Positions 4,613 to 5,155 of a DNA stretch of 64,000 bases are shown here, piece by piece; position 1 is the stretch's first letter, and every line of letters starts with the position of its first letter. Source of the DNA: Nocardioides sp. zg-1308 (lineage in GTDB: Bacteria > Actinomycetota > Actinomycetes > Propionibacteriales > Nocardioidaceae); the NCBI RefSeq assembly GCF_013155375.1, contig NZ_JABJQY010000002.1:496001-560000 (forward strand), given 5' to 3'. The notes beneath the pieces were generated by a model. That model did no database searches and was not told the origin of the DNA. It saw nothing but the letters and a program-made list of their open reading frames with translations. Made by a program: the position numbers and the translations under genes.

Positions 4613-4642
4613 TTGCGTACCGCAATGGTTGTATTCAACAAC
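4613..4642. promoter_or_regulatory. Candidate MarR operator: two adjacent inverted repeats
   Basis: Two perfect inverted repeats sit 20-50 bases before the MFS start: TTGCG-TAC-CGCAA (4613-4625) and GTTGT-ATTCA-ACAAC (4628-4642). MarR proteins commonly bind AT-richer 13-18 bp palindromes of the TTGnnnnnCAA type, and this patch is conspicuously AT-rich for the window. A TATAGT hexamer immediately upstream on the minus strand could be the -10 of the operon. Regulator assignment is by position only. Confidence 0.5.
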
Positions 4643-4717
4643 TATATGCCTGTCGTCGCGGCACCGCCAGCCGACTTCGGCGAGACCTGGGACACACCGT
4701 TGGGGCCGTCCTACGCC

Positions 4718-4876
4718 TTGAGTCGCCCAGAGACTCAACGTGCAGTCCGGGCGTGTCGCCGCGCTCCCTCGGCCCTGAGTCGTCCAGAGACTCAACGCGT
4801 AGCCCGGGGGTGTCGCGGCGTTCCCTCGGCCCTGAGTCGCCCAGAGACTCAACGCGTAGTCCGGGCGTGTCGCGGC
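4718..4876. repeat. Three 57-bp tandem repeats, each with an inverted repeat
   Basis: Three copies with an exact 57-bp period begin at 4718, 4775 and 4832; the last is partial. Each starts with a palindromic unit, TTGAGTC-7 nt-GACTCAA in copy 1 and TGAGTC/GACTCA arms in copies 2 and 3, followed by a conserved stretch (CGCGTAG-CCGGG-TGTCGCGGCG-TCCCTCGGCC with few substitutions). It lies in the gene-free stretch between the MFS operon and the candidate structured RNA. There are no unique spacers, so this is not a CRISPR array. It could be a protein-binding array, a transcription-stopping element or a dispersed repeat family of this genome. Confidence 0.85.
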
Positions 4877-4936: not shown

Positions 4937-5072
4937 TGCAGCGACCCGCAGGCCTGCTGCTCCTCGGGTGAGGAGCCCCGGGGGATGACACCGGGGGCCT
5001 GCGGGTCGGGTGGCTGCAGTGGATTCGCCGGCAGCTGTCGGCGATGCCGGGGCTGCCTAGCGGGCAGCCACC
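4937..5072 (-). ncRNA. Candidate structured RNA: three-way junction plus switch-like hairpins
   Basis: The gene-free stretch 4594-5174 contains dense perfect inverted repeats. CGACCCGCAGGCC (4942-4954) pairs with 4996-5008 over 13 bp; inside it GCTCCTC-GGGT-GAGGAGC (4959-4976) and CCCGG/CCGGG (4977-4995) form two abutting hairpins, giving a three-way junction. Next to it GGTGGCTGC (5009-5017) can pair with GCAGCCACC (5064-5072), or GGCTGCC (5051-5057) with GGCAGCC (5063-5069), but not both. Strand is inferred from the promoter and ribosome-binding site upstream on the minus strand. I do not recognise it as a known RNA family. Confidence 0.45.
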
Positions 5073-5095
5073 TCACTCATCCGAAAAGAACTCAT
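5057..5095 (-). CDS. 12-codon small ORF with very strong ribosome-binding site
   Basis: An ATG at 5095 opens a short frame encoding MSSFRMSEVAAR, ending in TAG. AAAGGAGGTG directly upstream (5105-5114) can pair with the whole anti-Shine-Dalgarno end of 16S rRNA; spacing to the ATG is about 11 bases, and a CCGAA/TTCGG hairpin overlaps the start region. The stop codon lies inside one of two competing hairpins. It may be a leader peptide or small protein whose translation governs folding of the RNA downstream. The peptide faintly resembles the first residues of excisionase-like HTH proteins, but no HTH follows in frame. Confidence 0.45.
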   Translation of the reverse strand: MSSFRMSEVAAR

Positions 5096-5126
5096 TCTTC
5101 GGACCACCTCCTTTCCGTGTGCCACC

Positions 5127-5155
5127 ACCGTACGTCGCCGAGCGGGGCCACTCAA
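5127..5155 (-). promoter_or_regulatory. Predicted sigma-70-type promoter for the small ORF/RNA unit
   Basis: On the minus strand TTGAGT (5150-5155) and TACGGT (5127-5132) are separated by exactly 17 bases, matching an actinobacterial housekeeping promoter with a TAnnnT -10. Transcription would start near 5120, leaving only about 25 bases before the small ORF. It lies downstream of the ABC exporter stop, so the RNA unit need not depend on read-through. Confidence 0.55.

Follow-up and report, generated by a model that had tools for sequence, protein, structure and literature searches.

Regulatory-type RNAs with an embedded open reading frame (ORF) are known as dual-function small RNAs (sRNAs), for example SgrS and RNAIII, and the same combination is present in Ms_IGR-5 (Rfam RF02471). 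In S. avermitilis, two stand-alone sRNA transcription units were reported to match Rfam, and Ms_IGR-5 is one of them, a unit of its own with a mapped transcription start site (TSS) and 3' end (PMC8780764). Support from RNA-seq is given for S. lividans (PMC8079986), and in M. smegmatis the RNA overlaps ncMSMEG15794c (PMC10454040). Ribosome footprints were found on the homologues of M. abscessus and M. smegmatis, and the authors caution that RNPs can mimic ribosome footprints (PMC4974804). In the available parts of the literature naming Ms_IGR-5, no mention was found of an ORF, a complement to the 16S tail or a mechanism, and a literature search with the peptide endings returned nothing relevant.

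Identity and distribution of the RNA

The window, i.e., the whole stretch of 64,000 nucleotides that was analysed, gave a single match when it was scanned with Rfam. This match is a full-length RF02471 (model positions 1-184), and it occurs in one copy in the source genome:

4936..5120 (-): RNA Ms_IGR-5 (RF02471), from the predicted 5' end A5120 through the 3' hairpin, 185 nt; 106.5 bits against a cut-off of 45, fold z-score -5.2

A preliminary description of this DNA, made from the letters alone, had pointed to a promoter, a Shine-Dalgarno (SD) sequence and a 12-codon ORF, which together form the 5' half of this 185-nt RNA. It had also stated that ordinary gene calling would miss the locus, which holds for gene callers, but the locus is a known Rfam RNA.

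The Rfam model detected RF02471 in 59/59 genomes of the same genus, 98/121 of the family, 250/395 of the class and 57/296 of a phylum sample. A model made in this analysis from the first 69 positions of the element and trained on 42 sequences (R1) found the RNA in 115 of the same 296 genomes, nearly always as a single copy. About half of the family members in the phylum sample thus escape the current Rfam model. Ms_IGR-5 was absent from 13 of 148 genomes of a Mycobacterium-type genus and from 23 of the 121 family genomes, and is therefore not universally essential.

Several single genomes deviate from this pattern. The 13 Mycobacterium-type genomes devoid of the RNA include G814 and G864, several of them have 4.3-4.6 Mb, and a loss of the RNA in some of these lineages is possible. 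Two 3.3-Mb genomes of this type (G866 and G901; loci L282 and L283) gave weak matches lacking the SD motif, which might be decayed copies. At another Mycobacterium-type locus (L285, G923:C1:5086435-5087722), the RNA is interrupted directly behind the ORF stop codon, apparently owing to an inserted element, and its two parts lie about 1.1 kb from each other. Two copies, a rare case, are present in G736 (L311 and L312); both have an intact 13-codon ORF, and the assembly is 7% contaminated.

Other identities found no support. ARAGORN and a tmRNA model gave no match within the window. A likeness to Rfam CC2171 reached 18.5 bits against a cut-off of 75, was mostly limited to the stretch complementary to the 16S tail and was attributed to chance or convergence. 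A phage origin was also rejected, with a single match across all viral contigs and negligible phage carriage.

Promoter and layout of the locus

The elements of the 5' half are arranged as follows:

5150..5155 (-): -35 hexamer TTGAGT, seen in the sequence; 200/224 relatives have TTG 16-18 nt upstream of the -10
5127..5132 (-): -10 hexamer TACGGT after a 17-nt spacer, seen in the sequence; TANNNT in 224/224 relatives
5101..5115 (-): extended SD GAAAGGAGGTGGTCC, 15-nt complement of the 16S 3' tail with one G.U; core near-invariant across the family
5057..5095 (-): 12-codon ORF ATG..TAG (MSSFRMSEVAAR); start and stop kept in relatives by comparison

Read along the minus strand, TTGAGT (5155-5150) is followed by 17 nt, TACGGT (5132-5127), 6 nt, the predicted TSS at A5120, ACACGGAAAGGAGGTGGTCC, GAAGA and the ORF, which runs from ATG (5095-5093) over 12 codons to TAG (5059-5057). 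The promoter that had been proposed at 5155-5127 is present and conserved. Counted over the 224 relatives with a 12-codon ORF and enough upstream sequence, TANNNT plus the upstream TTG occurs in 200 (0.2 expected). A generic sigma-70 scan made no call at this promoter, the -10 hexamer of which is GC-rich. The gap between promoter and SD had been given as about 25 bases; from the -10 hexamer to AAAGGAGGTG (5114-5105) it measures 12 nt.

Conservation of the short reading frame

For the ORF, 264 distinct elements were collected. In 261 of them, a start codon lies 8-13 nt after GGAGG and is followed by 12-15 codons and an in-frame stop (12 codons in 225 elements, 13 in 12, 14 in 21 and 15 in three). 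Start codons are ATG (138), TTG (89), GTG (18), CTG (9), ATT (4) and ATC (3), and stop codons are TAG (246), TGA (12) and TAA (3). Internal stops are found in 0/261 elements in the ORF frame versus 218/261 and 249/261 in the other two frames. A usable ATG/GTG/TTG ORF was present in 94%, compared with 8% after shuffling the loop between the SD and the GGAC of codons 5-6; since the compared loci are kin and relatedness is uncorrected in the ORF counts and shuffle controls, these counts are not independent events. Together with the promoter kept in relatives, this difference indicates that the block of promoter, SD and ORF did not arise by chance. Forty newly fetched loci served as a held-out set, of which 38 could be parsed, and 37 of these had start and stop where predicted, against 6.7 expected with shuffled loops. 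The remaining one, L293, has an in-frame TTG one nucleotide outside the preset spacing.

A shortened loop was found in the deep loci L275 and L279 and the held-out loci L297-L299, in which GAGGTG is read in another frame and a 10-codon ORF leads from a correctly spaced start to the same TAG. This short variant of the 5' domain (59 nt) occurs in few families only and shows no evident pseudoknot. Across the family, ORF length ranges from 10 to 17 codons.

The 12-codon ORF noted earlier is thus genuine and conserved in about 300 relatives compared, and the search in related actinobacterial genomes that had been recommended found the whole promoter-SD-ORF block conserved. The proposed comparison of synonymous with non-synonymous change had a different outcome for the peptide. 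Of the 864 single-base changes of codons seen between close relatives, 602 were non-synonymous and 262 synonymous, and the 10-codon form keeps start and stop in another frame; start, stop and open frame are therefore kept, but the peptide is not. Purifying selection on amino acids was not detected, and the codon table of the relatives contains no conserved run of regulatory codons as in amino-acid-sensing leaders. An intact ORF with a ribosome-binding site is under selection, as in coding sRNAs. By this comparative evidence, it is shown that the existence of the ORF is selected and its peptide is not, and that the ORF strand forms one side of the predicted helices P1 and P2a and of a pseudoknot (see below).

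A small functional peptide, i.e., a conserved 12-residue micropeptide as the actual product, had been among the earlier proposals and is improbable on these data. The conserved start-stop frame would agree with it, as would a slightly higher synonymous share in frame (0.30 versus 0.22 and 0.18 out of frame) and the Glu-Val at codons 8-9, which is invariant among 12-codon forms. However, these invariant residues are encoded by GAGGTG, which is largely held by P2a and which the 10-codon form reads in another frame; 70% of the changes that separate close relatives alter the amino acid, and ORF length is variable. The converse, an sRNA that acts by ordinary base pairing and has an ORF only because the RNA itself is strongly conserved, would fit the conserved structure and the discovery and annotation of RF02471 as an sRNA. 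Start type, SD-start spacing, stop type and ORF length vary, though, while the frame stays open, and RNA constraint alone predicts otherwise, which makes this explanation extremely unlikely.

Complementarity to the 16S rRNA tail

A perfect SD complementary to the anti-SD had been claimed, and the match is real but extends further than described, over 15 nt. GAAAGGAGGTGGTCC (5115-5101) matches GGATCACCTCCTTTC of the 16S gene of the source genome (L254) with one G.U wobble; as RNA, the 3' end of the 16S rRNA, GGAUCACCUCCUUUC, is the pairing partner of GAAAGGAGGUGGUCC, with the same single G.U. In the genome, AAGGAGGTGRTCC occurs twice, at Ms_IGR-5 and antisense on the 16S gene, and the complement of the whole 16S tail is the only such site outside the rRNA locus.

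In most members, the start codon lies 11-12 nt from GGAGG, which is a long spacing, but the extended complement ends 5-6 nt away from it. This position suggests that the SD extension is used. Weak starts (TTG, CTG, ATT, ATC) are common among members of the family. In S. aureus, extended SDs were reported to help weak start codons (PMC13009471).

Conserved fold

The ORF and its surroundings are part of a predicted fold with the following elements:

5117..5119 (-): helix P1, 5' strand CAC, partner GTG 5076-5074, helix as long as 6 bp in relatives; compensatory changes
5074..5076 (-): helix P1, 3' strand GTG, inside ORF codons 7-8; compensatory changes
5079..5082 (-): GGAU strand in codons 5-6 of the ORF, partner of the 3' hairpin loop (pseudoknot) or alternatively of the SD tail (hairpin H1); covariation
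5064..5072 (-): helix P2a, 5' strand GGTGGCTGC, ORF codons 8-11; covariation and fold
5009..5017 (-): helix P2a, 3' strand GCAGCCACC; covariation and fold
5052..5062 (-): helix P2b, 5' strand CGCTAGGCAGC, with the stop codon inside; minimum-energy fold, counterpart in the Rfam model
5026..5035 (-): helix P2b, 3' strand GCTGCCGGCG; minimum-energy fold and Rfam model
4942..5008 (-): 3' hairpin H3, stem 5008-4996 / 4954-4942; minimum-energy fold and Rfam model
4983..4986 (-): H3 loop AUCC, pseudoknot partner of GGAU 5082-5079; AUCC in 19/20 GGAU relatives

The minimum-energy fold of the window RNA (-100.9 kcal/mol, z -5.2) contains P2a, P2b including the stop codon, a hairpin at the start codon (H1) and the 3' hairpin, in the loop of which CAUCC is left unpaired. 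A highly structured stretch had been expected behind the ORF; structure is indeed present, yet it is not separate, as the ORF is woven into the fold.

In P1, for example, 5' ends reading CAC, CGC, CCAG, CGGG, CUUC or CGUG pair with GUG, GCG, CUGG, CCCG, GAAG or CACG, respectively, the partner being the triplet to hexamer immediately before AGGUG inside the ORF. P2a is formed by GGUG plus five nucleotides of the ORF end with a downstream GCAGYCACC, and its strands covary (GCUGC/GCAGC, ACCGG/CCGGU, GCCGA/UCGGA, GCAGU/GCUGU). The pseudoknot pairs GGAC of codons 5-6 with GUCC in the 3' hairpin loop, and the two sides switch together: GUCC is present in 218/224 members with GGAC, AUCC in all but one of the 20 with GGAU. 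On alignment A1, 98.4% of the cells of the three helices are paired and nine pairs carry double changes; the double-changed cells number 41 versus 8.4 in shuffles, with 0/500 shuffles as high and kinship uncorrected. Pairing fell to 30-45% when the three helices were slid by 1-3 columns. In 31 sequences from deep branches, pairing in P1 and P2a amounts to 92.9%, and double-changed cells number 67 versus 25.8 in shuffles.

Among held-out loci, the pseudoknot recurs with other letters (GUGACC/GGUCAC, AGACC/GGUCU, CGACC/GGUCG, GCGCGACC/GGUCGCGC, UGUGACG/CGUCACA), and the mean longest match is 5.3 nt compared with 3.5 nt with mismatched partners (highest control 4.2). This test is independent of R1, because the R1 model holds P1 only and lacks the downstream side of P2a and the loop side of the pseudoknot. 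As predicted from these comparisons, P1, P2a and the pseudoknot are three helices that are missing from the Rfam model and are new here.

Genomic neighbourhood

In the window, the RNA is flanked by a pair of ABC exporter genes and a DHA2-type MFS gene. At 91 diverse loci, a simple GC-by-codon-position caller, which makes individual neighbour calls rough, placed the following gene on the same strand 40 times and on the opposite strand 45 times, and the gene families varied between loci. No same-strand gene is conserved downstream. As neither neighbours nor orientation are conserved, Ms_IGR-5 is not a cis leader, and the leader peptide suggested earlier does not agree with neighbours that differ between lineages and a next gene that is opposite in about half. 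Regulation in cis of the MFS or ABC transporter genes was likewise rejected after the neighbourhood comparison.

A leader or attenuator, with ORF translation governing the transcription or translation of the following gene (in the window the DHA2-type MFS efflux pump), is thus very improbable. Short ORF, alternative pairing and terminator-like hairpin are parts of attenuators, and the MFS gene is next on the same strand in the window and in some relatives of the same genus. Besides the neighbours at the 91 loci, this reading is opposed by the separate transcription unit with its mapped 3' end described in S. avermitilis (PMC8780764) and by P2a and H3, which are not in competition with each other in the minimum-energy fold.

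Two further elements were seen nearby. Just downstream of the RNA (4719-4852, minus strand), a unit with the palindrome TTGAGTCTCTGGGCGACTCA is repeated in three tandem copies with a 57-bp period; 12 copies occur in the genome at <=1 mismatch, several in tandem, which makes it a REP-like dispersed repeat. Directly upstream of the MFS efflux gene (4613-4660, minus strand) lies the short motif TTGTTGAATACAACCA, which looks like the operator of a regulator.

Possible mode of action

Since start, stop, match to the 16S tail and pseudoknotted fold are kept but the peptide is not, the RNA probably works by being translated. A free RNA that has to be translatable, with an irrelevant peptide and an ORF that is one strand of the fold, is best explained by docking and passage of the ribosome. 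Of the three proposals made earlier, a translation-sensing RNA is the one that fits best, with its own promoter, exceptional SD, conserved mini-ORF and structure behind it. From the sequence comparisons, a stand-alone, structured, single-copy Ms_IGR-5 RNA with a function that depends on translation is regarded as probable, with moderate confidence.

A ribosome decoy has also been considered, in which the extended SD would hold 30S subunits in place or compete for the 16S tail, with the ORF serving only to release them again. It would account for a 15-nt complement that is unique in the genome and for weak starts combined with a very strong SD, especially ATT/ATC/CTG in deep branches. It leaves unexplained the conserved P2a and pseudoknot and the fixed relation of the ORF to both, and is considered rather unlikely.

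Within the translation-dependent reading, H1 offers an alternative pairing. GGAC can pair with GUCC of the SD tail instead, and H1 is 90% paired on A1, with weaker covariation than the pseudoknot. As the main structure around the start codon, H1 was rejected: its pairs beyond GUCC/GGAC are not clearly above shuffles position by position, although the whole helix exceeds shuffles on A1, and it was therefore kept as an alternative state only. The core letters GA(C) match the SD tail, itself fixed by 16S, and are almost constant; the letters on either side, with the loop as their only partner, show free covariation, and this difference favours both pairings being in use. It suggests that the Ms_IGR-5 fold may act as a switch between H1 and the pseudoknot.

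In such a switch, GGAC paired with GUCC of the SD tail would hide the start codon and part of the SD, and GGAC paired with GUCC of the 3' hairpin loop would free both. A 30S subunit would dock on the 15-nt SD, its binding to the SD tail would free GGAC for the loop, and the pseudoknot would hold the start site open. As GGAC has two competing partners, docking should promote the pseudoknot and the pseudoknot should promote docking. A ribosome elongating as far as the UAG in P2b would then unzip the pseudoknot, P1 and P2a. Translation or ribosome availability could thereby set the fold and, through the fold, RNA stability or activity in trans. Candidate downstream effects are a change in its own stability, exposure or hiding of part of the RNA, for example the conserved internal loop AAUCC, or the occupation of 30S subunits.

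The full proposal is tentative and may well not hold. It takes Ms_IGR-5 as a stand-alone RNA switch that occurs throughout the phylum and is read by the ribosome: the 16S 3' tail and GGAC would compete for the SD tail, GGAC would then move over to the loop of the 3' hairpin, and the fold would be reset when a mini-ORF of neutral sequence is translated. A free RNA, and not a gene leader, would in this way measure 30S availability or the integrity of the 16S tail. If the translation-dependent reading is right, a free RNA kept translatable with an irrelevant peptide would offer natural access to ribosome availability in mycobacteria and in producers of antibiotics.

Comparison with known systems

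An orphan sRNA found across much of Actinomycetota (Mycobacterium, Nocardioides, Cellulomonas and deep classes) gains an architecture and a testable mode of action. Ms_IGR-5 was already known as an sRNA; the selected ORF, the peptide that is not kept, the 16S-tail complement, the extra helices and the non-conserved neighbours are new. The element described here is a full-length member of RF02471, which is an sRNA in Rfam, and it shows P1, P2a and the pseudoknot that the Rfam model lacks.

Leader peptides with attenuation resemble it in a very short ORF that overlaps alternative RNA pairings, but Ms_IGR-5 has no conserved downstream gene, run of regulatory codons or conserved peptide. In contrast to the dual-function sRNAs SgrS and RNAIII, the peptide sequence is not selected in Ms_IGR-5 and the ORF strand is part of the conserved fold. 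Extended SD-aSD sites of S. aureus (PMC13009471) share the pairing beyond the core SD, whereas the complement in Ms_IGR-5 spans the whole 16S tail and is located in a stand-alone structured RNA with a 10-15-codon ORF.
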